Source: Turritopsis dohrnii (lineage: Eukaryota; Cnidaria; Hydrozoa; Anthoathecata; Oceaniidae). Taken from it: a stretch of DNA of 64,000 nt. The stretch covers positions 806,001 to 870,000 of the forward strand of contig BQMF02000116.1 in the NCBI GenBank assembly GCA_027922465.2. Reading direction: 5' to 3'. Below, in pieces: positions 11,218-60,215 of the stretch. Position 1 is the first letter of the stretch. Each line of letters opens with the position of its first letter. The notes beneath the pieces are model-generated. The model was not told the DNA's origin. It was given only the letters and a program-made list of their open reading frames with translations, and made no database searches. The position numbers were made by a program, and so were the translations under genes.

Positions 11218-13292
11218 CTGTGTGTAGATGGATTCGGTTACTTGCCGTAACATAGCATCTCCGTGACACGCTGTCAAGATCTTTAATTCGAACTTGTTGT
11301 TTGTCATATGTTTGTGCTTCTCTTGTGTATGTCTATATAAAACAGAGTTCTTGTCTTTCTTTTCGTATGTTTTTATATGTTCAGTATATCTTTCTGAAAT
11401 GCTTCGTGCAGTTTCGCCAATATAGGTATCGCCACATTGGCAACTTATTTCATATACTACTTCTCGGCTTTTGCAGTTGATATTGTTGTTGTTGCCGTTG
11501 CAGACTTTGCAGGTATCGTCATTACATGTTGTATTGTTGAATGGGTTTGATCTAACAAGTTGTTGTTTTATTGTAGGTCCTGCTTTTTCTATCACTTTAA
11601 TCTTTAGGTTATTTGCTTTTATGATGTGTTGGAATTTTCTTTGTAATTCGCTATTCGGTGTCGATTCGACAAACAATACAGTGTCGTATTTATCAGGTTG
11701 GAACCAATTGTTTCTTTTACAGTGTTTCTCTTTCTCGCGTTCTTGTTTGTGCCAAAATTTTGAACGGTAGAGTGGGCAGATTCCATTTTTGGCGTTATTG
11801 ATGATGGTTGTAAACTTTTGTTGTGCTCGTTTGTATATTAGTTTTCTATCGTATTCGTTATAGCCAGAGAATTGCATTCTATTAAGGAATTGTTGGATGT
11901 GCGTTTTTCGTTCGTTAGGGTTGCAGTAGGGTGAAATGTTGCGCATAATACGGACAAGGTCTGCAACGAGTATGTTCTTCTTTGATTCTTTGATTCTGGT
12001 AAAGCAGAATGTTTGTTGATTACGTGTTTACTGGACATAGGTTTCATATAGTGCGAGTGCATGATTTTGGGTTTTACTTCGTTGTTTGTAGTTACTTCTT
12101 CGATCCATATTTCGAGATTAAGTACAGGTAGGCGATTGTTCGGGTTATTTGATGGATAGTCGATTGTGACGGATATACTTGGATGGATTGTGTTTGCAAT
12201 GAACTGGATGTGTTGCATTGTTTGTTTTTCGCTGGTATTATTCGAGTTAATGGCGATGTTGATGTCGTCTACGTATCGGCCATAGAGGTGTATAGTGTAT
12301 GTGTGGTCAGTTAACTTTCGGAGTAACTGTTTGTCCCACCAAACCATGAATAGAACAGCTACGTCTCCGGCTATTCCTACACCTATAGCTCCACCGGTTT
12401 CTTGAATATAAAGTTTCTTATTGAACGTGTATATATGGTTTTTCAGTGTGTACTTGAGGGTTACTCCTAGTGCGTATATAAGCATTCTTTTAATTTCTTT
12501 GTTGTTATGTGGTGTTACGTTGCTTTTATTCCAGTTCGCCCAACGAATGTTTGAATTGGTGCTTGTACCAGCAGATGTCAACGTTGGTTTTCTTCCTTTA
12601 TTTGTGGTCCTTTTCGGACAGTATGATAGAAGATTGGTTGATCTCAATTCATCTTCAGAGCACGTGAGCATTAGGAATAAGCCTAGTTCGTCGGTGTCGA
12701 TATTGTTAAATGTGACGTCACTTTCTAAAATAATTTCTTTGCAATTATCAACAGCGAAATCGATTTCAATTGATGGGTAGAGGGCTTTTACGTCCATACT
12801 TCCAATTATAGTGTTACTAAGGTCTAAGTTGTTATTGACGTCATCAATACGACTTAGAAGATCTTCAGTACTTTCACAAGTTGTTTTTGCTGCTTTCACG
12901 AATGGTCTTAGGATTGATGATAGAAAGTGCGATATTCTATTATTGCTTGCTATTTTTGCACCACATACTGGTCTTGTAACTGGTCCTTCTATGAGATTCT
13001 CGCAATTCTTGTGGTCTTTTCGTAATCCATATAACGGTGGTATTTGATTGTTGAACGTCTGAAAGGATTGTTTTACTCTGTTGTTGCTTTTCATTATTGT
13101 ACACCATGAAGTTAAGTGTGCATTTAAGTTCTTTTCTATGCTATTGTATTGATCTTGCGTTACTTCTGTTGAGTCGAGGTGTGGTTGCATAGATTTTATA
13201 TAATTTGTTGGTGTATCTATTGACATTCTACCGGATTTATCTGTGGGGTAACACATGACTTCGTTTGATTTTATCCGTTCTCTTAAAGATCT
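11218..13292 (-). pseudogene. Penelope-like element, 5'-truncated minus-strand copy
   Basis: This is nearly identical to the plus-strand PLE from its position about 13963 to 16018. It encodes most of the reverse transcriptase (from the CYPTDKSGR region) and the GIY-YIG endonuclease. The 5' end is cut at 13292, directly against the plus copy (13293). A small duplication (AGAATCAAAGAATCAAAG at about 11980-12000, 5 extra bases) breaks the frame between RT and GIY-YIG. The 3' end is separated at 11217/11218 by the CACTA-like insertion; its tail lies at 5317-5377. Head-to-head pairs with one 5'-truncated partner are a known Penelope insertion pattern. Confidence 0.9.
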
Positions 13293-20443: not shown

Positions 20444-20501
20444 AATAATAATAATAATAATATATAATCGTAGAGGAGAAAAAGTGTTCCGTATTACTTG
20501 A

Positions 20502-23500
20502 TTGAATCTGCTAAAAGACAGAATTTTTAAAATGTCTTCTCAAATACGTGCCAAAGGAAGTTTGAAAAGCAAAATCATTAAAAACGCTTTAAGAGCATAT
20601 ATTGTATCGCCTATTGTGGTAAAGTATCATGTATGCGCTGTTCGTGTTTTGTGGCAGACTGGCTATTCTTTGAAAAGCATATGGTCGAAAAGACAGCAAA
20701 TAAATGCCATACTAACAGAACAGAGAAATGTGGTCTGTTTCACGGCTATCCAGCGTAAATCCACTAAAAGGAAAGCATCGGTATCAGAAGATACTATGTC
20801 GTTGTCTGGGTTAACTTAAAACGACAACAGCGAAGATGACAACGACGAGGTTGCTGATGATACAGAAGAGCAGACCAGTGAGCCAGGTTTATCCTTTTGG
20901 ATAGCACTTGATTGGCCGGAATGTAGCCTGTCATCGTATGAAGACATTCTGGCCAAAATGTTCATGGATTCTGGCTTAGACCTCTGCAGCTGTAATGTTG
21001 TCAAAGGAAGAGGTAATTCACTTATTTTTTCGTATGAAACTATGAACTATATAGGTTGTGTGATGCTTTAATTGTGGTTTCATATTTTGTCTGTATCTTT
21101 CGCAGGTTGTAAGACATCCTTGGATGCGTATACGGCGTCACTATTCGTTGTTCTGAAAGACTGGAACTCAATCAAGTCATCCGAACTAATACAGTTATCG
21201 CAAAAGGAAATCATAAGAGACGAGGCAGAAAAGTCTGGTTTTGAAATCCAAAACGTTAACTTGAACGAGGAAATGGTGTCCTTGGCAAAGCCCGCTGAAA
21301 TTGTACTTTGCACGCGGCTTGATTGTGAAACGAGAAGGAACTTGATAGAAGGCGTTAACAAGATGAAGTTTACCATCAAATTCTCATTAAGAGATCTTAC
21401 TGAGAATTGTAAAACCTTACTCAAGTTTTCTTTCATGTTCTTCTTTGGTTCCATCTTTATTGCTTGTTCCTTTACCTTTAGTGCCTTTGTTAGACCGCGA
21501 TGTAGTCCCCGAAAAGCAAGCAAAGCCGACATCAAAGATTTGTCAAGCAGTTGATGTGATAAAAAGAACAATGCTAGACAACGGATACGGCATTAATGAT
21601 GGAGGCGTGTTTAAGAAGATCACCGAATCAACTCGTACATACGTTTTTTGTTGTTCAGTAAAAAGTTACTTGCTATCATTACTGGGAAATGGTCACATCG
21701 CAGATCTTGTAACGCCGTTTGTGAGCACCTTGACAGGATTATTGTCAGAGAGATCTTGTCGCCTTATTGAACCGCTAAAAATTGATTATAACTTTATAGA
21801 AGTACTAGACGGATACTTCTTTAACATAGAAGGAAAGGCATTCGAAGAAAACCCTGCTGACTTAAATGGATCGCCACGAGCTTACGTGAGGTACAAGTAC
21901 ATTGAAGGTGTAATTCCGTACCCAGTCAAGTTTATTGAAGGTATGCCTAATAGAATTATCTTTCGATTAGTTGTTCAAGTGATGACCATGAAAACTGTTT
22001 TCCTTTCGTTCAGGTGTGAAAAACAGCTTTCCAAATCCAGTAGTTCGAATGAACTTTTATCAAAAGTACTACCAGATCCTAATGCACGGAAAGTTCCCTA
22101 TGAAAGAACCAAAATTATGCTTGGTTGGACCGCCGGATAGTAGCAAAACAAGTTGGTTTTGTCCGTTTCAAGGTATCGTTCCCAAAAAGAGCTACTTTTT
22201 TATTTGATTCCCAAGCCATGTTTCTTGTCACCCTTTGATGCAATTTTTTCCTTCTCATTTCCTTATATCCTTTAATTTTGACAGGAAGAGATTGATTTCA
22301 ACAATTTCATTAATATTCAGGTATTATCCCTTCCCGCTATATAGCCGGAGTTGTAGAGGATGGAAGATTCTCTGGCCATATGATCAACCAGATGACGCAA
22401 GTTGTTTTCATGGACGAATGGACGTCCAATAGTCTTTCATGCAAAGATGCTAAAAGAATTCTTCAAGGTAAAATACATCTATTGAGCACAAAAGCCTAAA
22501 GTACATGGACGTTTCATGACATTTCTGTCTTGATTTACCTGCAGGTGGCCTCGTTATGGTGCCCTAAAAGCATAAAGAGGCTTCGCGTTTCATTTACAAC
22601 AGCGGTTTTTTTATCACTACAAACATATATCCCGACTTTGGGGATAATACCGATGGCGAGGCAATTCGAAAACGACTTGCCGTGTTTAATACGAAAGCAT
22701 TATCAAGCAAAGACGGAAGTGTCTCAGGTCAATAGTAAACCTTCTAAAATTCAACAGAATTACCGTTTATTTCGGCTATGTAATAAAACTATGTGTTTAT
22801 TTGCGTTTAGGTTGGCTCAGGCGACATTGTATGGATGTTTTCCATTTTCTGGCTGACGAGTTAAAAGACATGCCCATATTCGCCACATTAGATGAAGAGG
22901 AGGATCGTTCACTCGGCGCAGTTTACAACGACTTCGACTGCGATCTATCAACATTGCTGACAGGGAGTGACTCTTTCATTTATTCTCAAGCTCCCAGCGT
23001 TACAACTGAAGTTGAAGATACGACTGGAGTATCGCTAAAAGCAGTTGCTCATGCCGTATTGGAAGCCGATAGATTTGAAGGCACTCTGTACGAGCTGCTT
23101 TCCGTCGAAAATGAGCTAATAGATTTTACGCGCCAAACCCATGATGTCCATTACATGGAAAATGTGTATAAATTAATGTTGGATTGGAAGTCAATAGTGC
23201 ATACACTGAATGAGAAGATCATCAAGGTATACGAAATGCGGCAAAGCGTCGAGTGGGAAGGATCAGATTCACTATACGACAGTTGGCTTTTTATGAATGG
23301 GAAAGAAAGGAAAGCGTTCTGCAGGAGTGTTTTTAAGCATCGCTTTCCAAATTGGGAAACGCAAGTACCATCAACGAATAGCGTACAACCTGAATTGCAA
23401 ACACAGAGAGATGATGAAAGCTCCGATAACGATGTTGATTTTTTTGTACCTGTTGACAATCCTGACGATTTCGTGCTTGAACGAAAACCTTTTGCCACAA

Positions 23501-23613
23501 GAGTAATTCCAACGTACACCATAGAAATCAGCAGCGACGAAGATGAAGACCGAAAACCATTCGTAGCCACACATGTATCAAAAGAAGTGGTAGTTATAAG
23601 TGACGACGAATAA
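20502..23613 (+). pseudogene. SF3-type helicase gene of copy A, eight exons, two in-frame TAA
   Basis: Exons: 20502-21012, 21106-21408, about 21482-21940, 22014-22172, 22321-22467, 22545-22727 and 22811-23613 are supported by splice sites and by protein similarity to the copy at 50309-59628; a further exon limit inside the first is not excluded. The Walker A exon reads LVGPPDSSKTSWF, the next carries GVVEDGRFSG and the Walker B VVFMDEWT, and the next the sensor GFFITTNIYPDFG and RKRL. This order defines an SF3 (E1/NS1/Rep-type) ATPase, which would unwind DNA to replicate the element. The C-terminus is acidic and ends VVVISDDE, a plausible SUMO-interacting motif. The stop codon overlaps an AATAAA signal (23611-23616). 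In-frame TAA codons at about 20817 and 22573 break the frame; otherwise it is clean. Resolvable introns are phase 1 within Gly codons. Confidence 0.85.
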
Positions 23614-23690
23614 ATAATGTATCACTTACCTTGAATTTTTCATATCTAAGTCACACAAAAATAAATAAACAAACCAATAAATACTTTAAG

Positions 23691-24731
23691 GTCATCTAAC
23701 TACTTAGTTTCCAGACTCTCCGATAAGCAAGTTGTCTTGCGGCACTTTATCACCCCTTGTTCCTTCTTGTTCCTCCTTTTTTCCCCTTATTCCCCGTTAT
23801 TCCCCATGTCAAGAAGATAAGTTATGGAGTTGTTCCTCTTGAAGGCGTTACCTATGGGCGGTAGTTATAGGCGTTAACCTTATTTCCCCTTCTTTCTTAT
23901 TGTTCCTGCTTATTCCCCTTGTTTTCCGTTATTCCCCTTATGAAAGAGAAAAGTTTATGAACTTAAAAGAGGCTTGAAGACACCTGTTCTGAGCAAACAG
24001 TGACTTCATAACGGACTTGACTTAAGTTTGAATTAAGTCCATAACTTATCTTCTTGACATGAGGAATAACGGGGAATAAGGAGGAATAACGGGAAATAAG
24101 GGAAAACAACGGGTAACAAACAGGCAACACCCTCTAAAGGACAAAGTCCATAACTGTGCGGCAAGGCAACTCGCTAATCAGAGGGTCTGGAAACTAAGTA
24201 GTAAGATGACCCTTCCTCTTATCGGTAGTAGGCAACGCCCACCCCATCCGCAGAGGAGCAGCAGCGCTATCTTGCCACCGCTTCTTCCCCCTTACCGCCC
24301 CTCGTTCCTCCTTATTCTCCCTTGTTCCTCCTTATTCCCCCTTGTTCCCTGTTATTCCCCTTGTCACAGAGAAAAGATTATAGACTTAACGGAGCAAAGT
24401 GTTACGTCATAGTGTACTTGACTTAAGTTTGAATTAAGTCCATAACTTATCTTCTTGACATGGGGAATAACGGGGAATAAGGAGGAATAAGGGGAAATAA
24501 CGGGAAATAACGGGCAACAAACAGGCAACGCCATAACTAACCTCCTGCTCCCACCTCCCCTCGCCCTCTAGGTACCCCGTTTGGTAGAGCAAGTCCATAA
24601 TTTATCTTCTTGGCATGGGAAATAACGGGGAATAAGGGGAAAAAAGGAGGAACAAGAAGGAACAAGGGGTGATAAGTTGCTGCAAGACAACTTGCTTATC
24701 GGAGAGTCTGGAAACTAAGTAGTTAGATGAC
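23691..24731. repeat. 1-kb palindromic repeat rich in GGAATAAC words
   Basis: The ends are inverted copies beginning GTCATCTAACTACTTAGTTT and continuing through a CTCCGATAAGCAAGTTG block. Inside, TTATTCCCCGTTATTCCCC words occupy one side and their complement the other. A further inward end (GGAAACTAAGTAGTAAGATG, about 24192-24211) and a duplicated block (24013-24080 versus 24415-24482, AAGTTTGAATTAAGTCCATA) show that it is compound. It lies exactly between the converging helicase and YR genes. No protein is expected from it. Confidence 0.8.
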
Positions 24732-24893
24732 TTATTACTCCTATCAAATTGCCTGGTAGTAGGTAACAAATTGTAACCAGATATTACAAGGTGCTGTAAA
24801 GGCCATTTGCTTATCGAAGGGTCAAAAGGTAGAATTAGGCGTGATAAGGTGATTAAAATGCCGTAGGGGACTACAGATTGAAGAGGCAGATAT

Positions 24894-25184
24894 TCATTTT
24901 AAGTTTTTCTTCACTCTTAAATTTTCTTTACATTTCTTCAAAAGTACTATATGTTTTAAGTCTTTCAGCAACAGGTTATGTTTTTCCTTCCTCTTTAAGA
25001 AGATCAGCTTAGCCATCAGTCCTGTGGAGTCGGTTATATTTGCGAAATAAAATGGTCTTGGTCCTATTATTTGGCTTGCATCTAACAAATTTTTCAAGCA
25101 TCGTCGATCTTCTTCACTTAGTTCAAACTTTGTGTGGATCTCCCCATTATTGGTAAACAGACATTTACGGAACTTGAAGAACAT
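24894..25184 (-). CDS. Small lysine-rich hypothetical protein of the YR element
   Basis: A 96-codon open frame lies just downstream of the YR-Myb gene on the same strand. It contains ELSEEDRRCLKNLLDAS and a basic tail. No family was recognised, and no counterpart was found in copy B. It may be an exon of the upstream gene or chance. Confidence 0.25.
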   Translation of the reverse strand: MFFKFRKCLFTNNGEIHTKFELSEEDRRCLKNLLDASQIIGPRPFYFANITDSTGLMAKLIFLKRKEKHNLLLKDLKHIVLLKKCKENLRVKKNLK

Positions 25185-25306
25185 CCTGATCTACCAACTG
25201 TTACTCGTAAAGAAAGCTGTTCCCCTTTAGTTAGTGCTTATGTAGTCATACAAAGTACCGAACTGTTTACAAATTTAACACAGACATAGTAGATAAATCT
25301 CGTATG

Positions 25307-27082
25307 TTAAATTAAGTTTAACTTCTTTGCTCTGATCATTAGAGTACTCGGTTTTCGTGAAGGATGAAAGCTATATTCCGGATCTCGTAAAATCGCTGTC
25401 CATTTTCCCTGACCATATCTTTTGATGCCATAAGAAAGAAACGAGTCTTCAGTAGCCGAAAATGCAGCCTTGCTTTGTCGTTTGATGCCTTTATTCTGCG
25501 GTTCTGCTGCAGCGGATAAGTTCTCGTTTAAAGCAATGTTAAGACAGGATTTCGCTCGTTCATTTCTTCGGTCCACTCCATTACTGCCGAGTTCGTTAGA
25601 AGTTGATATCGTAAAATGATCGTTCAAACGATGGTTATTCGTACATTCTTTGTCCATGGTTACCAGCTTTTCCATACACTGTTGACCCTGACGAGCTACT
25701 TCGGTTGATTAAAGTTTTTGATAATGTATTCTAGCTACGTGTGATGTATGCTTTTGATCACGTGATAAAGCCGCTTGCTCACGTTCGTTCAGTTTACCCA
25801 TGCTTTCCGTTTCGATAATCTGCCTGTATCTTGTCGGGTTTACATACTTTCCAATAGCCTGGTAAACAATTCTTCCGAAAATATCACTTAACTGTTTCAG
25901 CTGGGTTCCATTCTTTGTTACCAAAACGTAATCGCAAATAGGATTTAGTCTAGTCCGAATACAAGCTATGTACCCATTCAAAATATCAACAACTCTTTTG
26001 GAAATAATGAGAGTATCAAATCCATATTTATAATTTGTTTTGAATCTTGTTTGATCGATAACACCGCCTTCACTTCCAACGCCACGTACCATTGCAACAG
26101 TTAAATACTGATATGTCATTGGTCGACTTGCTTTCACCATTAGAAACAGTACAGCTACAACAAACGAAGTGCTGAAAGATAAATCGTGTGCTGGAATGAT
26201 GGCATTCGAATCACTAGCGTTAATCAATATCTGTGAAAATTTGTCGGCATGAAAAGGAATAACATTTTGTAAATCTTCCAGGCTAGGCCAACAATTGATA
26301 GTTTCAAGGTATTCCTTGCTCAGTACTGTACTCCATTCAATCCTCATTTGCTTTGCTAAGCACTTTTTTACCCTGTCTAAGTAAATTTCAGCTGCAATGA
26401 ATACAGGTATATTCTCGCTTTTAATTGCATTACTCCTTCTGAAGTCAAGCGTGTGAGAAATGGCGTTCATGTAGCCAATAATTCCAGAATGACCAAGTTT
26501 CCAAGTGTCCTTCAAGTAATCCACAAAGTCAGAAAGCATTGTAATCGATCCAACGCAATAATCTATAACACATCCTGGTACGTCCCAGAGAATAGATACG
26601 TCATCGCAACAGAATTTCGCATACTTTAAAAGTTTGGCTGTTATTTGTTCCGCTTGACACAAACTTTTACCTCCTCCACCTGGACTTTGTAGCCATTTTG
26701 AAAACAGTTTTCCAACAGTACATGTTTTAACAAACATCGGCATTGAAGAAGTGCAGCCTCGTTTTCGTTTACTTTGAGTGGATACTCGTGTTGCAAATTC
26801 AGGAAATATAGTGGTAACGTCAGGTTTCTCGTCAAAAAAGTAAAACCAACCATGCTTTGTATAAACGTGTTTTCTACAACCTCTTTGCGTTTTAAAGCCT
26901 TCGCTTTCACATGACTTCACAGGGCATATGTACACTCCATTGCTAGTAGTTTTTAAGGACAACCTTTTCGGTTTCCTTTCATTTCCAACAGCTTTTTGCC
27001 ACATCTTCTTTGATAAAATGCGTCTTTTCAACATCTCTGTCACGTAGTGAATCAGAAGATCAAGACGATCCCTTTTATGCAA
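25307..27082 (-). pseudogene. Crypton-like tyrosine recombinase with C-terminal Myb domain, one in-frame TAA
   Basis: The first 457 codons form a tyrosine recombinase, which would cut and rejoin DNA through a tyrosine linkage. A C2H2-like finger sits at residues 53-77 (C53, C58, H72, H77). A helical core-binding region (about 125-215) includes KWLQSPGGGGKS. The catalytic region has R320 (KASRPMTY), box II NPTRYRQIIETES (R418/R420), H445 and Y454 (ARIHYQK), with the usual 9-residue H-to-Y spacing. A TAA (25709-25711) then interrupts the frame, which continues 130 codons to a Myb/SANT domain of telobox type (YGQGKWTAILRDP). Copy B has the YR end and Myb in one uninterrupted frame, so the two halves are one protein. 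The start ATG at 27082 is the first in frame. It is intronless, unlike its partner helicase gene. Confidence 0.85.
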
Positions 27083-27638
27083 ATGTTTTAATTAGGAAAC
27101 GTGTGAATTTCGACTAATCAAAAAGCTGTTCTTTTATTGCAAACTTGCGGAAACTGACAGACCGAATTAAAGTGGTCAGCAGAAAGTTTTTAGGGTTTTC
27201 CACTTGTGTTCTGTATTATACACGACTGCATGATTTTTATAATGATTACACCAATAGGAACATTCTGTCTCATATATAACGGAACAAAGCCTTCCGTACA
27301 AATACATGGCAAGTTAGCAGAATACAGAACAACATGGACCGTTTAGTATATTAAACATCGGTCTTGCAAAGACTTTTCTATTCTATAAAACATCGTGCAT
27401 CTGAAAAAAACTTTAAAGGTCCCAAGAGTGCCTCAGAAATTGTTCCTTTTATAACAAAAGGAACTAACGAAATAGGAACACGTGCAAATGATAAAAATGT
27501 TTATGCTCCATTGCTTTGCAAATTTACTTATACAAAGGAACAAAATAAGTTTATACGCTATATAATAATAATAATAACAATAATAATCAATGGAATCTCT
27601 CATCGTTGAATGAAGTAAATGGAGCACGCCTGTACTGC

Positions 27639-27743: not shown

Positions 27744-27836
27744 ACTTTTTAATTTCGATTTCTAATCAATGATTCTAAACACCGATTATTCTGATCATGA
27801 TGAAGAACACTTAAGTTTTATGCAACAGTCTTCTTA

Positions 27837-28376
27837 ATGTTGTCAAACAGCATACCAACCACATCCAATTGCATAACAAATCAGAACATGAAGTTATTTG
27901 AAACACTCTTCATGAAATTTAGAAGATATCACAACATTTTTAACTCAGCAGGACCCTATCAGTTGAAAAAATTGATTCACTGGGTGGGTCTTATTTTTGA
28001 CCATGTCCGAATAAACAATTATTCAACATTGTGCAAGTTTCACATTTTTGTAGAAACATTGATATCAGAATTTTTGGATTTTCTTCGTAAAAACTGGCCT
28101 GACATAAACATCATTCCAAAACTGCACATGATGGAACATTACATGATCCCATTTCTCAAAAAATCGAAAGTCGGCTTTGGATTCTATGGACAAAAAGGTA
28201 GAGAGAGCATTCATCATTCATTCAAACAAATGAAACATCGATACAGTAACATGAAAAATCCTGTCAGACATATTAAGGTATCTCATGAATCAGCACTTCT
28301 TCCCTCTACTATGTACTCTGAAGCTCAACTAATCAAACCGGCAGTAAAAAGAAGGACGTTATCAGCATCAAATTAA
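27837..28376 (+). pseudogene. C-terminal fragment of an N-RAG-TP-like protein
   Basis: A 179-codon frame with FLDFLRKNWPDINIIPKLHM, HYMIPFLKKSKVGFGFYG and ESIHHSFKQMKHRY. I recognise this as the C-terminal region of the same transposon-protein type as the gene at 434-5056. No upstream exons with the RAG1-like zinc region or GDYEFLC block were found, so it is a truncated, probably dead copy. Its orientation is opposite to the first copy. The first Met in frame is arbitrary; the real exon probably starts at an acceptor. Confidence 0.6.
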
Positions 28377-47412: not shown

Positions 47413-47419
47413 ATTGTTT

Positions 47420-48883: not shown

Positions 48884-48932
48884 TATATTTTGTAAGAGTT
48901 GCGTTTGTGTTCTAACTAGTTGAATATCAACT

Positions 48933-49459
48933 ATGAGCAAAAGACTGTATTCAAAGCCGTATTGGAAAGACGCTATAGGTGCTTCTAAAAAATCGAAAAG
49001 GCTTAAACTGAACACAACTGACAAGAACTTGTATTTATGTCCAATTGATTCTTGTGATAGTCATCCCTTCTACAGTAAAAGAGGATGTCGAAAGCATGTA
49101 TATAATCATCATGGTTGGTACTATTACTTTGACACAAAACCTGATATAAATGACGTTTTTCCCAGTCGAGTAACAAGAACGCACAATGAAGTTGTGAAAC
49201 ACAAGCGTGCTATCACACACAAAATGCCTACCTTTGGAAAGACAAATGCCTTGGCGACTGCGTTTCGCGCATGGTTAAAAAGTCCTGGTGGAAGTGGCAA
49301 AGACGAATCTCAGGCAGATCAAATTACATGTAAGATAATGAAGTACGCTAAGTTTTGTTGTAACGATGTACATTCGGAATGGGAAATTCCCAACAGTGTC
49401 ATGGATTATTGCATTGCCTCTATACCAATGCTGTCTGACTTTGTGAGTTATCTACATGA
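48933..49459 (+). pseudogene. Copy B tyrosine recombinase, N-terminal part
   Basis: From KRLYSKPYWKDAIG the frame parallels copy A: LYLCPIDSCDSHPFYSKRGC then KHVYNHHGWYYYF, the same C2H2-like finger. KSPGGSGKDESQADQITCKI and VMDYCIASIPMLSDF follow, which is the core-binding region. Similarity stops at an ATCTAT microsatellite (49460-49491). The catalytic half lies beyond it in reverse orientation. The first ATG (48933) follows the MITE closely, so the true start may have been lost. Confidence 0.8.
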
Positions 49460-49491
49460 AATCTACATCTATATCTATATCTATATCTACA
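49460..49491. repeat. ATCTAT microsatellite at an inversion breakpoint
   Basis: About five copies of (T)ATCTAT lie exactly where the plus-strand YR N-terminus meets the minus-strand YR-Myb C-terminus. Confidence 0.8.
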
Positions 49492-50075
49492 TGGATGAAA
49501 AGCGTATGTTGGATCATTTAAAATTGACGTCCACCTTCCCGTGCCGTATTTTAAAATTCCCTTTTCGATAAAGGTGTCTTCTAAATAGCTGAATGGAACC
49601 TTTTTTCTTCGAACTGGTGTTTCTCTTGTGACGTCTGTATGACTGTTGTTGGAATTAATGTTAATGTTAACGTCATTTATTGTTTCTTTACATTGGGTTT
49701 GATCTTTTAATTTATTCAAACACTCCTTTGCTCTTAAAGCTACATCTTGTAAGTGGATCTTTTGATAATGTATCTTGGCAACACGGGAAGTGTGCTTTTG
49801 GTCAGTTGAGATGATATTCTGTTCTTCTACATTTAAATTAATCGCACTTTCTGTTTCAATTATCTGCCTATAACGTGTGGGATTAATATATTTCCCAATT
49901 GCCTCGAACACAGTTCTTCCAAAGACATCAGCAATGCGTGTTAGTGTTTTGCCGTTGCGAGATATTAATAGGCTGTCACAAATAGGATTTAATCTAGTTC
50001 GAATGTAATCGACATAATCATTTAACAGCGTTAGAATCTCTACAGAAAAATGTAATGAATCAAAACTATGTATGA
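49492..50075 (-). pseudogene. Copy B tyrosine recombinase C-terminus fused to Myb domain
   Basis: Read leftward from 50075: a strand/helix region (SFDSLHFSVEILTLLNDYVD), RTRLNPICDSLLISRNGKTL, box II NPTRYRQIIETES, then DQKHTSRVAKIHYQK with the catalytic His and Tyr. The frame continues without a stop into RRKKVPFSYLEDTFIEKG and the Myb/telobox core ILKYGTGRWTSILNDPTY, ending at the microsatellite. The part of copy A around the first catalytic Arg (R320) is missing. This segment shows that YR and Myb are one protein. Its orientation is opposite to the N-terminal half, so it was inverted in place. Confidence 0.85.
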
Positions 50076-50169
50076 ATTTTACTAAGATTTCTGCTTACGC
50101 GCCTCTTACCCAAATGTGTGTGCTTCTTACGCGTTCTTAGACGTTCTTACTCGTTCTTACTCAGTTGCT
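50076..50169. repeat. Single unit of the GTAAGAACG satellite
   Basis: The reverse complement of one unit of the array at 51963-52795 (CACATTTGGGTAAGAGGCGC and GTAAGAACG words). It abuts the inverted YR segment, so the satellite marks a rearrangement joint. Confidence 0.8.
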
Positions 50170-51962
50170 GCTTGGATAAGAATTTTGTGATATTTCTTCT
50201 TTTTTTAAGCTGATACATAATGATTTATATCAAGTGTTCTCGCAATGCTATAGACAGCTGTTAAGAGGAATGCGATGCGAAGGAAAGAAGTATTAAGCGT
50301 AGTGTTTTTTATTTTTCATCTTCTGAGTCACTATACAAAACTATTCTCTGCACAAATTTGTCTCCAACTGAAAATGGTTGAACCGTCATTGGTGGAAGTC
50401 GAATATCTGGCTTGATGTCTTCATCGCTATCTGTAATTGTTGACGGCTCGTTGAGATCTTCTTGAATGTCTTGCGATGTTTCATCATCTGAAGACTCATC
50501 TTCATTTATTGCTGTATTTGTGCCAGAACAGCTGCTGCAGCTACAGCTACTGTCTTCTGACGAGGATTCATCTTTGCTTGTTTGCCTGCAGAGCAACTGC
50601 CAATTAGGATACATCCTTTTGAACTTTCCGTAAGCAAACCAATCCCTTCTCATGTTGTTAGCCAATAACCAGGCATCGTATATTGAATCCGGCCCTTTCC
50701 AATTTGCTCTGACACGCATATTAAAAATGTCGGTCGTTTTCTGTGTCAGATTGTTTTCTATCGCAGACCATGATGTCGTTACTAGCTTGAAAACCTTCTC
50801 TAAGTACTCTGTGTTAGAAGCGCTATTGGTGTAATCGGCCAGATTGGTGTCAAATGTCAGGTGCTCGTATAGTATCCCTTCCGTTCTATCTGCGTCAAGC
50901 ACAGCTTCGTCAAGGGCTTTCTGTGGCACCACTTCAAACTGACTGCAGTCTATCTCTTTGTGATCCTGCATACTGAAGCAATTTAACTGCTCAACATCCA
51001 GAAGCAAATTTGTTGATCCTCCATCAAAATCATTGTAGACTGCTCCTTCCTCAAGGGTACTCGTTTCTAAGTTTCCTTGTTCGAAAATCGGCGTGTCTTT
51101 CAGCTCGTTGGCAAGAAAATGGAATATCTCCATACAATGCTGTCTCAGCCACCCTAAGAACACCCAAAGTTGTTTGAGAACGCTCAATGTAAATAGTAGA
51201 CTACCAAATGTAAAAATTAGAAACAGATAAGTACTTGTCATGCTGAGATCTTTGCTTCGTAGAGTTTTCGTTCTGAAAATCGCCAACCTCTTCTTCACTG
51301 CTTCTACATCTTCAGGCGCACCAAAATCAGGATACACATTGGTCGTAATGAAAAAGCCGCTTTTGTATACAAACGTAGACACGTCTTTATGCTTGTTTGG
51401 AAGCGTGATTAAACCACCTATGGACAAAAATTCATTTATTCATGCAATATTAACCACAAGGAAAGTTCAATTGAAATAGAGAAATTATATTTTTAAAGAT
51501 TCCATACCTTGTAAGGCTGTTTTAGCTTGCTCACACGAAAAGCTATTAGATGTCCATTCATCCATAAATACGATTTCCGTAATTGATCGTATATTACTAC
51601 CACTGAAGCGACCGTCTGGCACTACGCTAGCAATATTTCTGATGGGGATAATACCTAAGGGATAATGAAACGCAAATACATCCAATAGATATTTCATTCA
51701 TGGACTATTACACAGGTTACTGTTAATAAAGTCAACTGTATGTACCCTGAAATGGACTAAACCAATTTGATTTGCTACTATCAGACGGGCCAACAAGCAG
51801 TAACTTTCTCTCCTTTTGAGGGAATTTTCCGTGCATAAGCAGTTGATAATATTTTTGATAAAACAAGTGTCGCAGCCTTGCATTTGGTATACTATTTTCG
51901 ATTCCTAAATCATCACAAAAAATAATAAAACTCACCCTTCGAAGTACAACTGAGGTGCCACT

Positions 51963-52795
51963 GTGTAAGAACGCGTAAGTAGCACACACATTTGGGTAAG
52001 AAGGGCGTAAGAAGAAATCTGAGTAAAATTCTTTTCCAAAGGGTAACTGAGTAAGAACGAGTAAGAACGAGTAAGAACGTGTAAGAACGCGTAAGTAGCA
52101 CACACATTTGGGTAAGAAGGGCGTATAAAGAAATCTTAGTAAAATTCTTTTCCAAAGGGTAACTGAGTAAGAACGAGTAAGAACGAGTAAGAACGTGTAA
52201 GAACGCGTAAGAAACACATACGTTTGGGTAAGAAGGGCGTAAGAAGAAATCTTAGTAAAATTCTCTTCCAAAGGGTAAATGAGTAAGAACGAGTAAGAAC
52301 GTGTGAGAACGCGTAAGAAGCACATACATTTGGGTAAGAAGCGCGTAAGAAGAAATCTTAGTAAAATTCTTTTCCAAAGAGTAACTGAGAAAGAACGAGT
52401 AAGAACGTGTAAGAACGCGTAAGAAGCACACACATTTGGGTAAGAGGCGCGTAAGAAGAAATCTTAGTAAAATTCTTTTCCAAAGGGTAACTGAGTAAGA
52501 ACGAGTAAGAACGTGTGGGAACGCGTAAGAAGCATATACATTTGGGTAAGAAGCGCGTAAGAAGAAATCTTAGTAAAATTCTTTTCCAAAGGGTAACTGA
52601 GTAAGAACGAGTAAGAACGTGTGAGAACGCGTAAGAAGCACATACATTTGGGTAAGAAGCGCGTAAGAAGAAATCTTAGTAAACTTTTTTTACAAAGGGT
52701 AACTGAGTAAGAACGAGTAACAACGTGTAAGAACGCGTAAGAAGCACACACATTTGGGTAAGAAGCACGTAAGAAGAAATCTTAGTAAGGGATTG
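51963..52795. repeat. 106/116-bp tandem satellite, about 8 units
   Basis: Units share CACATTTGGGTAAGAAG, AAGAAATCTTAGTAAAATTC and CCAAAGGGTAACTGAGTAAG; the 116-bp units have one extra GAGTAAGAAC. Eight CATTTGGG landmarks are spaced 106 or 116 bp. It lies in the helicase B gene just upstream of the Walker A exon. The minus-strand ORFs across it are repeat translations. Confidence 0.9.
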
Positions 52796-52834
52796 TTCAC
52801 AAATGACGTCAACCATTTTTCCAAGATTTTTGAC

Positions 52835-52911
52835 CCCCCCTCCCCCCTCTGTCAACCTCCGTCAACTTTGCGTTGCCCCCTCCCCCTCAGTTGACGTCAT
52901 CGTTTGAGAAG

Positions 52912-52950
<39 letters not shown>
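52835..52950. repeat. C-rich low-complexity tract with about 35-38 consecutive C
   Basis: A CCCCCCTCCCCCC tract is followed by an unbroken C run (about 52913-52950). Similar TTGACGTCA-flanked C-rich sequence recurs at 53195-53240. Proline- or glycine-rich ORFs here are artefacts of composition. Assembly length is probably uncertain. Confidence 0.9.
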
Positions 52951-52953
<3 letters not shown>

Positions 52954-53965
52954 AAAACAAAACAACCTCCACCCCACTTGTCCTTTTGTATGTTAGTTTC
53001 TTACGCCTTTTTAATAAGACGTGAAAATATTTGCAATGATCTTCGTGTAATTTTTCTCTGATCAAACTCCATCTGTGCTTATTGTTTTACGTTCGTGCAT
53101 CACGGACCACATCAAGATCACATTCAGTGTTAACATTTTCATAAGAAACTTTTACTTAATTAGAAAAATCAAGGTTTTGTAAAATTGTGTGGGTTGACGT
53201 CAACTAGTATCACATCCCCCCCCTCCCCCGTCAACCAGCGTCAACTTTAGCATAACCCCAGTTTTATCAACCGGCATTCCTTTTTCGATAATAGATTTGT
53301 AAGCTGTGTCATATGGGTTCCAATCACGTTTGCTATTTCTCTATTTCCCAGGAGCGTCAGCAAGAACTTTTCAACTGAGCTGCAGAATATGGACGTAAAT
53401 TTAGATTCAGGTATCTTCCTGTAGACTGATCCTTCGCAAATACCGTAGTTTCCGAAATCCATTGCTCTCTTGATAACGTCGACGGCTTTGCAGAAATTTG
53501 AATCCGATTTCATTTGTGCTGGATTACCAATATCTATGGAAAGGTAAAGTATGAAAATGAAGTAAATGGCAGCAATCTGTCTTATTTGCTTTGTAAATGC
53601 TAGTTAAACAGAACATTTTACGTACTATTGCCGTGATCAATTAAAAGATCATTCAAATTGGTATGCTTGATGTTATTAAGCCCTGATAGGATCTCCTTCC
53701 TTACGTTCTCGTCTAAGCGTTCTGTTGAAATGAATTGGACAGGTTTGACAGAAAAGTCATTTCCTTCAGTCGAAATGGAAATATCGTTTATATCGTATCC
53801 CAGATCGCAGGCAGCCCTTTTAACAGAGTCTCGCTGTGACTTGACGACCAATGCCACAGCCTTTTCGCAGTTGTGATCTTTTAAAACTTGCGAAAGTGTA
53901 GTTGTGTACGCTGTCACACACGATTCTTCTTTTCTGCCTGAAGTTTAAATCATGTTTGAAAGAAA

Positions 53966-56900
53966 TAGTCCAGTCTGATTGTGCAAAAATTGTGCAAAAT
54001 GACTTAAAAGCATGAAATTTGGCACAGTGGTAGTTTAGGGGAAAAGAAGTCATTTAAGCCTCAGACCCAACAAAAAACACCTGTTTTGTGTATTTTACAG
54101 ACCAGAATAGGTTCCCATGGCAACGAAATATTTTTTTCTACAAAATTGAAAGTGTTACATACCGTTGGAAAGATAATGTTTTCCTGAACAAAAAACTTGG
54201 TTAGGTCATGTCATAAAAATTAACCTATCAAAAGTTATAAGGCGTCAAATTTTGGGTCGTGACGTCATCAAAATACCAAAAAATTGATATTTTCAAAGTA
54301 AAACATGTCATATACCGTTGGAAAGATAATTTTTGCTTGATCAAAAAACTTGCTTAGGTCATGTCATGGAAATTAAGCTATCAAAAGCTATTAGGCGTCG
54401 AATTGTGGGTGATGATGTCAAATTTTTAATGATAAAATATTTGAAATATTTTTCCTACAACATGTTAGTTGTTTATTATATGCAGGAATACAGACTAAAC
54501 TCATATGACTAGGAAAAAAGATAAAACATTACTACACATGTATGTCATCACAATCACCCCCGCACTTGCAAAGGGCAGTGCATTTTAGTGATATGGTTTT
54601 GCATTTACAGCGTCCTTTACATCCTTTTTCTGGGTTACACCCACAAGAAATGAGTTCACGGCAAATAGCAGAAGCTTCCGGGATCGTGATCCATTGAATG
54701 GAAAATTCCCCATTTTCTTCTTCTTGCCAACCCCATATATTGGGACTAGGTAAATTCTGTTGTGCAATAAGGGATTGTCCCCAACAACTAGCTTGGTAAA
54801 TGGCACGTTTTGTGTGCTGAAGGAGAGCATGTTGTGTTGGTGGGATAGCTTCCAGTGATCTACCTTTTGCTGCAAATAGCACTTTCCGACATTCATTAAC
54901 GGATAGCATGAGACTTGTTGGGTCGTACAAAAGAGTGACATATCTTTCAATAACAGGAAATAATTCTTTTAGTTCTTGGTCAGAAGGAAAATTAGAACAG
55001 GAAACGAAACTTGCCGTTACTTCATCAAAATTTTTCCAGGTTCTCCATGCACTTTTCTTTCCTTTTCCTGCAAAGAACGAAACCTGGTCACATCCTGTAA
55101 AAGCGTGAAAGAAGGGCAGGCCACTACATTTAGCAGCACCGATAGCATTAAAGATGAGATGAATCGGTAGTAGACGATGATTATTACCAGTTCCAAATGA
55201 AATCCAAAGTTCTGATAAATTTAGCAAGGAAAACATTGCAAGGGCTATGATAACTACATCAGTATCAACTGTGCGAATCATAACTTTTTCCATCCCAGAA
55301 CGACTTGCGTGTAGAGCATGAAGGAGCATACGTGTATCTGCTTCTTCGTGGTTTGATGGAGAAAGAGACGATACATTGTCAACTGACATATTCGTGATGA
55401 TTGAGGAGCCAATAGTACTGATAATTAACTTCTCAGTTTCAGCTTGTGTTGCCTGATTAGCGAGGAAGCCAAAAAGTTCAGTTTTGTTTTCATCTAAGCG
55501 CAAAAACGACTGCCAGTTCCCAGGAATTTTGGTCGCCGGAAGAACTCTGCGTCGAATGCCTTTACCTGAAAACGAAATGAAATTATTTTGTTTTTCTTAA
55601 CATTATAAACATTTTTGAAATATAATTGCTTCGTACCATTTGTTCATAGTTCGAATCCCCCTTGAAGCCCCTCACTTTTCTTAAGGGGTGGACTTTCTCG
55701 AAAATTGAAAGAATTGGGTGGGGCAGTAAGAAAATCTTTCAAAACGGGGTTGAGGTCATACCTCTTTCAGAAGAGTGTTTTTTATTTATACCTCGTTTTT
55801 GTCGGGCTAAAGACTTCAAGGAATTCTCTACATAAACATCCCAAACAATGTCCACTCTCTTGCTTCTCTTTAACTGTTTCTGGATGTGCGGTGTGAACTT
55901 TTGAGTTGCGTATTCCTGAAATGTGGTTTGACTATTTGGTTTAACTATGTTTACGACTGCTGCTCCATCCAATATGATGCAGTCCATACACATTTCATCA
56001 GCAGCAACTTCATTATCGATTTTAAGGCAGTGCAACAGGGTAGACTTTGATCCGGGCATTAAGTCACCGTTTTTTGAGATTGATGCAGGATAACTGCCAT
56101 TTTCATGTGAAAAGAATTCTTCAAGATTGCCATCTCTAACTTGACAAGCAATGTAAAGTCGCGAGAAGAGTTGACATGACTTTTTGAGTGTTGTAATTTC
56201 CATCTTTGATGTTTTTCTTCGTTGAGATGGTTGCGTGAAGATTGAGAAATTATTTTTCTTAATGACTGCATAAATACTGATTTTTTTCTCTTTTAGCCTG
56301 CTATTGAAAAAATCATTGAACTGCTTCTTTCCAGACTCATCAATTTTCCTCATATTATCGACTGCAGTTTGATTCACAATGTTCTTTGAATCTAGTGCTA
56401 TTAGGTCTTTCGTTTCTTCCAAGAATGGGTTCCCTGCTTCCTGGAATGCCGTGACCAAATCATTGACATTCTTTGCAAATCGTTTTTGAGCACTGGGAGT
56501 TTGCTCATGATGCTTCGTTTGTTCTGTCAGTGCTGCCTCCAAGTTGTAAGGCAAGGAAGCTTCAAAATCCCTTACACTTCTTGCGACTTCAGGCCCACAA
56601 ACCATCCATCGTAAGAGTTGAATTGAATCTTCTGTGAGACCAACAGCACCTAAAAAATTGAAGTCTTACTTTCAAGTTAATCAAGTATCGAATTAGACTA
56701 AGTTTACTAATATGAGCTCGTTAAACATAAACTATCTATAAAACAATCGTGTGATACGTTCAGAATTATAAAAAAGCCCTACCCCCATCCCCTTTGACAC
56801 ATTTGTTATTCTGTTCATGAGCATGGTCGATTCCAAGTGAAGAGAATGCGCGCTTGGATTTGGCTACTACAAAGTGACCTTCGTTGAAATTATTGAAAAC

Positions 56901-59235
56901 CTCTTGGTTAGTCTCTTGTAATTGAAGCATGTCACATAGATGAACTGACAGCCAACGAGCATAGTGAGTATGATTAAGTGCAAAAAACCATGGCAAAAGG
57001 AGACTGATTGTTGTTTTGTAGAGATTGAAGTTGCCTGAACGAATAGTCGGTGCCTTGTAGAATCATGTCTACAAAGGAAGATAGCACTGACGGAACGAAG
57101 TTAGATTGTGAGTTAATATCAAATTGACCATCAAATTCTTGTAATTCTCTTTCCAATAGACTTTTTCGTAAAATATCAGCAGCCCTTGACAATACGAATG
57201 CATCTTCATCAAAATCTTTTTCATAGATAGTTTTGAAAACATCGGTCAAATCATTGTCAAATGCAAGGTATGCATCTTTACCTCTTTTTGATTCTGTTAG
57301 GCCATCAATCTGTGCAAGTAATCTTTCTTTTAGGCGTGTAGAATGTACGCGTTCAGGTAGTAGTCCTCCTAGATCTTCAAACCTCTTCTTGTACAGTGCT
57401 GCCAAGTCTGCCATCTTAAAAACGCATTTTCCTTCTAGCCTTACCCGTTCCTGCTGCATGAATGCCGCTAATTCAGCAAGAACCATCCCATGAAGTTTCT
57501 TATGTTCATCCACAATTGGTGCAGTATAATCACGAAGAGACTTTGCTTTATAATAAAAGGCAACTAGACAGACGGGATGATACATAGCATCTTGTGCTAT
57601 CATATCACCTTTGCTTAGTTTAGCAAGAACGTCAAAGTCTTGTAGAATCGTTGCGCATTCTCTGACTTTTTTGTCTAGTTTAAAAGTAGAAGCCCTAGAA
57701 AGACTCTCTGTGGTCGCTTTATCACAAAAGAAACACAATAAATTGTCATTTTCAAAATTTCCTTTACTTGTAGAAGGACGATTACTTGTTCGAGTCATCT
57801 GGCTGACAGCATCTACATAACTCATTTCACAATCAACGTTTTGTACTTCATCTGATTGAGGCTCTACCTCTGTATTGTTTATTTTCTTTTCCAACCTCTG
57901 TATTTTCATGTCGCTAAATTTATTTTTGCACAACTTGTGGAATTTTGCTTTCTTTTCAAAAAACATATCTGCTGTACATTTCTCCTTGGGAAGAATTACT
58001 GAGTCAACAGGTATAGCATTCAATTCCCGGAAACGATTGATATTATTAGTAATATTTTCGTATGTTTTAAACGAATCATAACCTTTACGATTAAGATCAG
58101 ACGGACATTCCAATTTTTCATTTGTATTGACTTGACATACAATACATAATTCCCAATCGACATCCTTAGTTTCAGTCAAACTTTCAAGTTCAGAATAACG
58201 ACGCTTTTTAGACATTTTGCTTTCCTTAATTTTCTTACTTCATCTCTATCATTCTCATTTATTTCTTTTGTCTAAAACTTAAAATACCTAACATAAAAAA
58301 TGTTAACATGCTCTGTTATAAGAAAAAGAAGAGACAATACAAGACTGTGAAATAAGCACGAACAGAACGTAAAGAACCAGACACTATAACTTGTGAAACA
58401 GAAACAACTTAAGAAACAAATATTTAAGAATCGAACATATCAAATTGAAACAAAGAATAAAAAATACTAATTAAAGCGCATTTCCATAACACACACTCAA
58501 CGCCACAAATCCACTCACACTTTGCTATAACGAACTCAATTTTAATTTGAACGTAGAAAACTAACATTTTAAACACTTTTCTAGTTGTTGCGTAACTAAT
58601 GACCGGCACGAGAGTTCGATCTAATTTTTCGAACGTTTTTTCTTCTTGAGGCTTACGGAGGCTTACAACGATTTCCTTAAAAAAAGGAAATGTTTCAAGC
58701 AAACATTTGCTTTCAAACGGTATATGGCATGTTTTACTTTAAAGATATCAAAATTTTTGGGTATTTTGATGACGTATTCACCCGAACTTTCACGCATTAT
58801 AACTTTTGATAGCTTAATTTCCATGATACGACCTAAGCAAGTTTTTTGATCAGGCAAAAATTTGCTTTCTAACGGTATATAGCATGTTTTACTTTGAAAA
58901 TATCAATTTTTTTGGTATTTTGATGACGTCACGACCCAAACTTTGACGCCTAATAACTTTTGATAGGTTAATTTTTATGACATGACCTAAGCAAGTCTTT
59001 TGTTCAGGAAAACATTATCTTTCCAACGGTATATAACACTTTCAATTTTGTAGAAAAAAATATTTCGTTGCCATGGGAACTATTCTGGTCTGTAAAATAT
59101 ACAAAACAGGTGTTTTTTTGTTGGGTCTGAGGCTTAAATGACTTCTTTTCCCCTAAACTACCACTGTGCCAAATTTCATGCTTTTAAGTCATTTTGCACA
59201 ATTTTTATGTTTTTTTGCACAATCAGACTGGACTA
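53966..59235. mobile_element. 5.27-kb TIR transposon with FEN1-like nuclease gene
   Basis: Inverted ends of about 465-490 bp begin TAGTCCAGTCTGATTGTGCA. Each arm contains ACCGTTGGAAAG-type words (54161, 54313; complement ending 59030) and a duplicated module with AAAACTTG(C/G)TTAGGTCATG and GACGTCATCAAAATACCAAA. The element sits inside intron 1 of helicase copy B: removing it leaves an intron of about 90 bp, as in copy A (93 bp). The flanks are AAA on both sides, a possible 3-bp duplication in A-rich sequence. No DDE transposase was recognised; the only gene is at 54532-58215. Confidence 0.85.
54532..58215 (-). pseudogene. Zinc-binding, FEN1/PIN-like nuclease and CXC-tail protein of the TIR transposon
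   Basis: Exons: 58215-56783 (with a frame slip near 56985), 56649-55791 and 55565-54532, joined by phase-1 introns in Gly codons. Exon 1 has two Cys/His modules (CIVCQ to FHKLCKNKF; CFFCDKA to YHPVCLVAFYYKA), then ends FFALNHTHYARWL and SLGIDHAHEQNN. Exon 2 carries FSHENGSYPASI, DCIILDGAAVVN and VDIVWDVYVENSLK. Exon 3 has HEEADTRML, VDTDVVIIAL, FTGCDQVSFFAGKGKKSAW and a Cys-rich end (CNPEKGCKGRCKCK, CTALCKC) like a tesmin/TSO1 CXC region. The D, E-x-x-D, D-x-D and GCD series with GKGKK resembles FEN1/XPG-type PIN nucleases; this is inference. From memory of the family, a central few hundred residues are missing at the slip, so this copy is probably defective. Confidence 0.7.
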
Positions 59236-59784
59236 AAAGTTAATCGACTTATGTTAATAGAAATATATGACATTTTTTACAATATGATATAATTTACCTC
59301 TTCCTTTAATAGCTTTGCACTCTTCAATATCTAGTCCTTGAGAAAGTAGCAGTTTCGTTAAATTGTTTTCGAGCGTTAAAAGAGCATGTTCTGGCCAATC
59401 ATACGCCACCCAAAATGCCATACCCGGATAATTTTCATACTCCTCTTCTTCTTCTTCCTGTTCGTCAGATTCTGCATACTTTCTCTTCTTTGACTTGCAC
59501 TTCTTCTTGGCCATAGCAGTGATGCATGAAAAGAAGCAAACGACGTTCTTGCACTCACACAAAACAAACTCAATTTCTCTGCGTTTCGCCCAGATTGTAC
59601 AATCATCAAGTTTTGCAGTGCTCCACAACGCAGTCGCGGTTTAAAATTTTGTGACATTCTGACCTTCTGTTCGTTAAAATATCGTTAACGAATCAACTAC
59701 TCAACACGAAAGAGGAACATTTTTTTTCTTTTATGGGCTGAAATATATTCGTTATTATTGTTATTATTATTATTTTTATTATTA

Positions 59785-60215
59785 TCCTGTCGTTGAGACG
59801 TCTCAGTGAAGATGTGATTAGGACGTCTTCTGAGGATCCCACTTTGCAACCATTGAGCGACGTCTTTGGGATGACATGGAAAGACGACCCTACGATGACT
59901 TAAGCAACGACGAAGGAATAAGTTTCACAATCCTGCGACATCGTTACGATGTTATTGGGATGTCGTCGAGACGTCTCAGTTAAGATGTGGTTGGGACGTC
60001 TTTTGAGATTCCCACTTCGCGACCATTTCGCGACGTCTCTACGACGACTTTACGAAGATGAACGAGTAAATTTCATACTCCTGCGACGTCGTTATGATGT
60101 CGTTGGGATGTCATCGAGACGTCTCAGTGAAGATGTAATTGTAATTGGGACATGTTTTGAGATTCCCACTTTGCGACCATTTCGCGAGGTCTCGACGTCT
60201 TTGTGCCCGCTGGGA
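59785..60215. repeat. GACGTC-rich ~145-bp tandem repeat and element end, right cluster
   Basis: Three diverged units share GAGACGTCTCAGT, AAGATGTG, GGGACGTCTTTTGAG, CCCACTT(C/T)GC(G/A)ACCATT and CGTTA(C/T)GATG. The array ends TTGTGCCCGCTGGG, the inverse of the left cluster's outer end at 42063. The ORF of 169 codons on the plus strand across it is repeat-derived. Confidence 0.7.

Follow-up and report, generated by a model that had tools for sequence, protein, structure and literature searches.

The 64,000-nucleotide window of Turritopsis dohrnii DNA analyzed here carries two copies of an element in which the gene of a tyrosine recombinase (YR) is paired with that of an SF3-like ATPase. We consider it fairly probable that they represent a family of small, capsid-less mobile DNA elements that operate in the manner of integrative plasmids. 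Prokaryotic integrative plasmids combine a YR integrase with a replication protein, insert site-specifically, and accrete in tandem. The suggested likeness is one of working, drawn by analogy; these plasmids, however, are prokaryotic, and a YR profile scan of prokaryote genomes returned no relative. The pairing is more than chance, since both proteins have relatives (Hydractinia and Clytia are among the matches to the SF3 protein, and Hydractinia among those to the YR protein) and the two genes are linked genome-wide. The features of copy 1 are as follows.

20462..27564, no strand: copy 1 of the element, spanning 7.1 kb with its 1.04-kb nested insertion
20444..20461, plus: (AAT)6 tract in the left flank; the window contains four tracts of at least 4 AAT/ATT units in all
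20462..20472, plus: left arm with core, ATATAATCGTA
20820..21012, plus: SF3 gene, first homology-supported block (match to copy 2; donor site; 5' start uncertain)
21106..21390, plus: SF3 gene, block 3 (match to copy 2; acceptor; 3' boundary uncertain)
21530..21940, plus: SF3 gene, block 4 (match to copy 2; donor; 5' boundary uncertain)
22014..22172, plus: SF3 exon 5, Walker A
22321..22467, plus: SF3 exon 6, Walker B (MDEW)
22545..22727, plus: SF3 exon 7, KH hairpin, sensor FFITTN, and arginine finger, with a premature stop inside
22811..23613, plus: SF3 exon 8, C-terminal part
23691..24731, no strand: nested insertion with inverted ends of 145 bp, between the SF3 and YR genes and foreign to the element
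24894..25184, minus: third gene, about 96 aa
25307..25708, minus: C-terminal Myb (TRF-like) part of the YR gene, beyond the stop in copy 1
25709..27034, minus: YR gene main frame, with C2H2-like finger, SAM-like N-domain, and catalytic domain (frame open from 27091)
27554..27563, minus: right arm with core, ATATAGCGTA, which recurs in fetched loci
27562..27576, plus: AAT tract in the right flank, overlapping the core by 3 bases

The SF3-like gene (plus strand, about 20.5-23.6 kb) and the YR gene (minus strand, 27.0-25.3 kb) lie where the initial annotation placed them, and they are convergent, tail to tail. As for the eight exons it gave the SF3 gene, seven coding blocks are supported, the later ones flanked by GT/AG; the additional 5' exon is tentative, as is the point where block 3 gives way to block 4, and a stop codon at 20817-20819 lies immediately 5' of the first block. 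Further stops interrupt exon 7 and the YR gene just upstream of its Myb part. Both copies in the window are damaged, which counts against the plasmid-like reading.

Walker A, Walker B, hairpin, sensor, and arginine finger occur in the correct SF3 order in proteins P0128, P0130, and P0131, as well as in type B at locus L035, and the motifs are retained across about 31-46% identity. Pfam reports PPV_E1_C (E 4.7e-4) and DUF5906 (E 1.4e-4), both below the cut-offs and from two of three SF3 proteins; the type-B ATPase has no Pfam match, and no related Pfam family was found for the SF3 N-terminal region. NCBIfam yields P4-type primase_Cterm for P0128 with an E-value of 0.0047, far under the cut-off. 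In the PDB search P0128 alone meets papillomavirus E1 at E 0.12, and motif order and KH hairpin align; a confident sequence or fold match with E1, however, is lacking. The structure model of the SF3 protein is poor (pLDDT 55.1), PDB structure searches with it gave no useful match, and PDB searches with profiles A4 and A5 returned nothing relevant. The SF3 fold is therefore putative, a point against the plasmid-like reading. The ATPase probably acts as a ring helicase, and its KH hairpin is like that of E1.

The recombinase belongs to the tyrosine recombinase superfamily according to both its fold and its catalytic residues, as had been proposed; one of the outcomes named beforehand as refuting, a recombinase lacking the YR fold, thus did not occur. 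Among 121 rows, the catalytic set R, K, (H/N)xxR, H, and Y is conserved as R in 120, K in 121, R in 118, H in 116, and Y in 115, with the first position of the second motif occupied by H in 44 rows and by N in 72. Stop-free YR frames of at least 590 aa were counted in 36 of 92 copies. The Myb-like domain reported earlier is also real: it is sub-threshold in the window itself and TRF1-like by family profile (E 3.2e-6). A BFVD search reported one viral YR (E 3.2e-4). A phrogs match was rejected as due to chance.

Crypton membership, implied by the label "Crypton-like" in the initial annotation, is not supported. The 460-aa YR frame has no Pfam match at E<=1, and no Crypton/DUF3504-type YR was reported by Pfam for P0042, P0103, and P0004 at E<=10. 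The element also departs from the animal Cryptons of Kojima and Jurka, which are described without terminal repeats and without a C-terminal domain in the sections of PMC3212892 compared. It resembles Cryptons in being a eukaryotic DNA element moved by a YR, and its 5-bp core recalls the short direct end repeats which the same sections give for the fungal and oomycete groups, along with a circular intermediate proposed for Cryptons. In contrast to Cryptons, it has an SF3-like ATPase, a third gene, an N-terminal finger, a C-terminal Myb domain, inverted arms, and tandem arrays; the words "helicase" and "Myb" are absent from the text of PMC3212892.

The pair had been described as a mobile element, and the check for co-occurrence at many loci supports this. 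A convergent SF3 match lies within 8 kb on the 3' side of 51 of the 92 YR copies (expected value 0.11) and a same-strand match beside none (0/92), 51 being a lower bound for any SF3 type because the query misses the type-B SF3 genes adjoining L022, L026, and L030. For the remaining 41 copies the 8-kb interval contains no SF3 match, and none is seen in 7 of the 16 elements followed; SF3 is therefore unnecessary in cis for each copy, which counts against the plasmid-like reading. Such SF3-less copies would also suit a plain YR transposon of the Crypton kind that excises and reinserts, with SF3 as a captured passenger (e.g., a viral replicase) having no role in movement. The YR alone could explain the ends and tandems, and truncated SF3 genes have been amplified as tandem units (L005, L006, L014, and L020). 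We nevertheless regard a passenger as unlikely, given that the convergent linkage is fixed and found in several diverged SF3 lineages as well as both window lineages, that the SF3 motifs are kept, and that SF3-less copies can move in trans. Near-identical copies are numerous, and YR cassettes sit on different backbones. The initial annotation did not include the third gene, and it likewise passed over element ends, tandem arrays, SF3-less copies, and module exchange.

Copy 1 has one ATATA core at either end. Its left end was placed by the arm adjoining (AAT)6 and by the left ends of other copies, and at its right end the homology of 29 other loci breaks off at window position 27565 +-26, except for L024, which has an insertion inside. 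The motif ATATA-N1-2-CGTA has 3 matches in the window versus 0.47 expected, and permutation of the AAT tracts gives 1/200,000 for three borders and 20/200,000 given the first; both are weak by themselves, because the borders were already known when they were computed, and the real test is provided by the fetched loci. The right-end junction is present in all 30 loci studied for ends, which are the best-scoring 30 of 92, have near-identical YRs, and include the window itself as L001. At 12 of them the right end is joined to the left end of another element through a single TATAT core. The right flanks, classified automatically and then adjusted by eye (L014 was moved to the direct tandems, L015 to those with ATT), comprise 12 direct tandems, 2 tandems with ATT, 6 ATT repeats, and 10 others, and these last 10 of 30 count against the plasmid-like reading. 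All 5 left ends located downstream lead into ATT repeats, and in all 17 close YR pairs both members lie on the same strand. The ATT tract was rejected as a fixed part of the element, being missing from 12 of the 30 junctions.

The second pair is more disrupted than initially annotated, and its features are listed below.

48924..49460, plus: copy 2 YR N-terminal part
49492..50070, minus: copy 2 YR C-terminal and Myb part, inverted, with the middle of the gene missing
50309..59640, minus: copy 2 SF3 remnants, interrupted (59640-59254, 53911-53645, 53534-53262, 51905-51744, 51655-51506, and 51436-50309)
59752..59785, minus: AAT/TTA tract where copy 2 ends on its SF3 side

The SF3 gene of copy 2 is split by a 5.2-kb element with 93-bp TIRs (53985-59206) and is also broken by a 106-bp tandem array (51963-52788). 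A second pair in the same orientation, as initially annotated, does exist, and the orientation is true of SF3 and the YR N-terminal part; the YR C-terminal part, however, is inverted and the middle is gone. Plain DNA alignment of the copy 1 and copy 2 ends was no better than shuffles, and reading the sequence on the YR side of copy 2 gave no definite end there. In the search with the YR C-terminal part of copy 2, copy 1 takes rank 115, which was set aside since its frame stops early in that region. The flanks of the two copies show no match, and the copies fall into different clades of the tree, copy 2 having been entered as its N-terminal part only. Together with the genome-wide linkage, these results speak against a single segmental duplication as the source of the linkage, the other outcome named beforehand as refuting. 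An origin of all pairs from ordinary host genes through one segmental or tandem duplication is in general very improbable, although arrays are regularly spaced (4.3-4.6 kb) and L003 and L004 have a flank in common: one sharp end meets differing flanks, and left ends of other subfamilies are joined at the same core. For the family as a whole the flanks refute such an origin, whereas single arrays may have arisen in this way.

In the copies read, the genes that recur between the element ends are SF3, YR, and the third gene alone. The third gene has homologues in 30 of 30 loci plus L045 and L047 and only weak matches in PDB and Pfam; it may contribute to the cycle proposed below. This gene content bears on whether the element might be a reduced provirus, that is, the remnant of an adoma-, papilloma-, or Polinton-like virus that formerly had capsid genes. 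Polinton-like viruses and virophages likewise unite a YR and an SF3 helicase within one eukaryotic element, and circularization prior to integration has been proposed for them, according to the portions of PMC4642659 and PMC12220804 compared; E1-like SF3 is known in several animal viruses, as stated in part of PMC11071296. In the former two sources, however, they carry capsid genes and an SF3 that is frequently part of a fusion with a polymerase or primase; none of these is seen here. The Pfam scan of copy 1 recognized no further gene and no capsid gene in the frames scanned, though diverged capsids would escape it, and YR and SF3 profile scans of viral contigs found no relative. A provirus is accordingly judged improbable, more so than a passenger SF3.

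As for the plasmid-like reading, the YR, aided by its finger and TRF-like Myb domain, would bind the inverted arms that flank the 5-bp TATAT core at each end and recombine both cores, giving a circle with one joined site, TACGAT-TATAT-AGCGTA. The SF3 ATPase would then open the circle by a predicted helicase activity for copying by host polymerases, and the YR would insert circles either at AT-rich sites, many of them ATT repeats, or at the end of an element already in place, producing head-to-tail arrays. The single 5-bp core of the tandem junctions is consistent with site-specific recombination through a circle, and the junction sequence equals the predicted circle joint. By description, the insertion resembles that of endogenous nimaviruses, whose C2H2-finger YRs insert into microsatellites and for which some seemingly episomal copies, as well as inferred concatemers, are reported in the portion of PMC10871703 compared; these, however, are large viruses (265-579 kb) with another target repeat.

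The chances seem evenly balanced that this is a new class of animal mobile DNA, namely a capsid-less plasmid copied as a circle by its SF3, integrated by a TRF-Myb/C2H2 YR at ATT-rich sites and its own ends, forming tandem arrays, and exchanging a recombinase-plus-end cassette between replication backbones. No description of a mobile element with YR and SF3 in animals was found in the literature compared. Cryptons, in the sections of PMC3212892 compared, have a YR and no replicase, and copy gain of YR transposons is therefore an open question. This question becomes testable with an element that joins a YR to a linked replicative-type ATPase, has sharp ends, and is present in many near-identical copies within a single genome. 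The element may be an animal equivalent of the integrative plasmids of prokaryotes, and it may connect transposons with small DNA viruses carrying E1-like helicases. That a single YR-and-end cassette should recently have spread across several backbones would be an unexpected evolutionary mode for such elements.

According to the initial annotation, a superfamily 3 (SF3) ATPase gene faces a tyrosine recombinase (YR) gene in the window, and both genes are present in this first copy of the element (copy 1, 20462-27564):

Gene pair of copy 1
within 20502-27082, + strand: SF3-like ATPase gene, intron-containing, facing the YR gene
within 20502-27082, - strand: YR gene, single exon, facing the SF3-like ATPase gene

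The later exon boundaries of the ATPase gene have GT/AG sites; its 5' part is provisional, as is the limit between blocks 3 and 4. Exon 7 carries a premature stop, and in the YR gene a stop precedes the C-terminal Myb part. Between the two genes lies an insertion (23691-24731) with 145-nt inverted ends that are 94% complementary; sequence akin to it occurs in other copies too. The YR end (27092-27561) contains six GGAAC/GTTCC motifs (12.8 per kb vs 1.19 in the window), possibly binding sites, and one such motif also occurs close to the two SF3-side ends. A 190-aa frame at 27804-28376, for which no Pfam family was found, recurs in inverted and diverged form at the start of the window (12-282, 43-48% identity).

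In the host assembly (436 Mb, 891 contigs), the YR query yielded 803 candidates at first look, of which 92 were scored; all 92 matched, 47 of them without a stop, including 36 with frames of at least 590 aa. With the ATPase query (frame 22690-23610), 130 matches were found, spread over 86 contigs. A convergent ATPase match lies within 8 kb on the 3' side of 51 of the 92 YRs, some of these ATPases being truncated tails and some possibly belonging to a tandem neighbour, while uniform placement predicts 0.11; same-orientation matches within 8 kb number zero for the 92 YRs. The query is blind to a diverged ATPase version (type B), which is present beside three YR loci (L022, L026, and L030). As for the ATPase matches, 62 of the 130 have one of the 92 scored YRs within 8 kb on the opposite strand, unscored YRs being uncounted. 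Co-occurrence at many loci, which the initial annotation proposed to test, is supported for this genome.

The second pair reported at 48.9-59.6 kb (copy 2) exists but is badly damaged: one half of its YR is inverted, the middle part is absent, and the ATPase gene is split by an element with terminal inverted repeats (TIRs) and a tandem array. The inserted element (53985-59206, ~5.2 kb) has 93-nt TIRs with 100% complementarity; its - strand carries long frames (354, 308, and 421 aa), for which a Pfam search gave no significant match. The array (51963-52788) comprises about seven 106-bp repeats, and a related inverted 113-bp piece (50074-50186) adjoins the inverted YR part. Directly upstream of the YR part of copy 2 is an apparent MITE (47980-48890) with TIRs around CAGTGTGTCCACC, and a frame at 46950-47413 that ends in 25 A resembles a non-LTR retrotransposon 3' end. 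Elsewhere in the window, 11223-16017 consists of two adjoining inverted-arm pairs (1299 and 768 nt, 100% complementary) around 660 nt of central sequence, which is either a long inverted duplication of very recent origin or a fold-back in the assembly.

A single duplication as the source of both pairs, the alternative raised initially, is contradicted by three results. The flanks of copies 1 and 2 do not match in blastn. The YR N-part of copy 2 is 59-63% identical to the six top-ranking relatives; copy 1, at 51%, is in 20th place. Finally, in a quick tree of 111 rows copy 1 belongs to a supported set of 23, and copy 2, represented by its N-part only, to a set of 3 with the homologous proteins P0034 and P0042 (Hydractinia).

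Comparison of the best-scoring 30 of the 92 YR loci, the window included, located the element ends as the initial annotation had suggested. Homology to copy 1 starts at window 27565 ± 26 bases in 28 of the 29 other loci, as well as in L024 for the outer of two homologous pieces. The right (YR-side) end is TATATAGCGTA after a T in all 30 loci, with one change in L015. In 12 loci it is joined directly to the left (SF3-side) end of a further element, in some cases one from a different subfamily, and in 2 it is so joined with intervening ATT repeats; it is flanked by ATT repeats in 6 and by other sequence in 10 (L014 and L015 were assigned by eye). Each of the five left ends located in downstream pieces leads into ATT repeats (a short run in L042), and three of the four AAT/ATT tracts of at least 4 units in the window are at element borders. 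YRs less than 10 kb apart are on the same strand in 17 of 17 pairs. In two elements whose YRs are 79% and 82% identical to that of copy 1, the junctions are of the same kinds: one is joined to a left end, and the other adjoins ATT repeats. Just inside its flanks, copy 1 has inverted arms ATATAATCGTA and ATATAGCGTA, noticed post hoc. This pattern is what a site-specific recombinase acting on inverted arms and a 5-bp core (ATATA/TATAT) would leave, with a circle only proposed.

The two ATPase searches (8 and 10 proteins) gave 17 homologues in all, and the named ones are from Hydractinia and Clytia; the nearest named relatives are hydrozoan. Homologues P0128, P0130, and P0131 contain, in that order, Walker A, Walker B MDEW, a KH hairpin, a TTN sensor, and an arginine finger. 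Pfam matches were obtained for two of these three, the best being papillomavirus E1 for P0128 (4.7e-4) and DUF5906 for P0131 (1.4e-4), both below their cut-offs; type B gave none. ATPase identity across elements falls from 97% (L044) to 31-38% (type B). Since structure prediction yielded no usable fold, motif order and sub-cut-off matches make SF3 the best reading rather than a proven one, and helicase activity is putative.

Regarding known systems, Cryptons resemble the element in having a YR, in the proposed circle and, for some groups, in short direct repeats, but as described in PMC3212892 they lack the ATPase, finger, Myb part, and third gene. Finger-bearing YRs that insert into microsatellites have a precedent in nimaviruses (PMC10871703), and Polinton-like viruses also pair SF3 with YR, but together with capsid genes (PMC4642659, PMC12220804); further related literature includes PMC11071296, PMC6431247, and PMC3537659. 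In open-licence literature, covered mostly by titles and abstract starts, no description of the present combination was recognised.

In all 30 loci the YR is immediately followed, on its own strand, by the third gene, a frame of ~96-126 aa. This gene exists in several versions, whose identity to two queries ranges from 100% down to 39%, and two additional lineages carry it as well (35% and 47%). Sixteen elements, 14 of the 30 loci and two further ones (C4 and C132), were traced into downstream DNA. The ATPase core is present in 8 (L007, L013, L017, L019, L022, L026, L030, and C132) and the tail alone in L002, converging on the YR in 9 of 9. No ATPase was found in the other 7 (L009, L010, L012, L016, L025, L029, and C4), although in L029 and C4 it may lie farther on or be very diverged because the left end was not reached. 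The third gene of L009, L010, L012, and L016 is the one found in type B elements, and these four look like deletion derivatives. At L033 (377-2143) and L034 (753-1043), ~369-bp tandem repeats encoding the same 97-aa frame occupy the position of the SF3 gene in other elements.

The YR halves of 13 elements compared have 97-100% DNA identity. Six comparisons of the other halves, however, show 99.5% similarity within a backbone in 2 cases, similarity over 67-126 bp only in 3, and none in 1. L022 has a YR 100% identical to that of L017 and a tail 99.5% identical to that of L026. Homology to the window ends at 25303-25324, the end of the YR gene, in 17 loci. Near-identical YR halves with differing other halves, together with this homology stop, indicate a recent spread of one YR-and-end cassette across several backbones by exchange.
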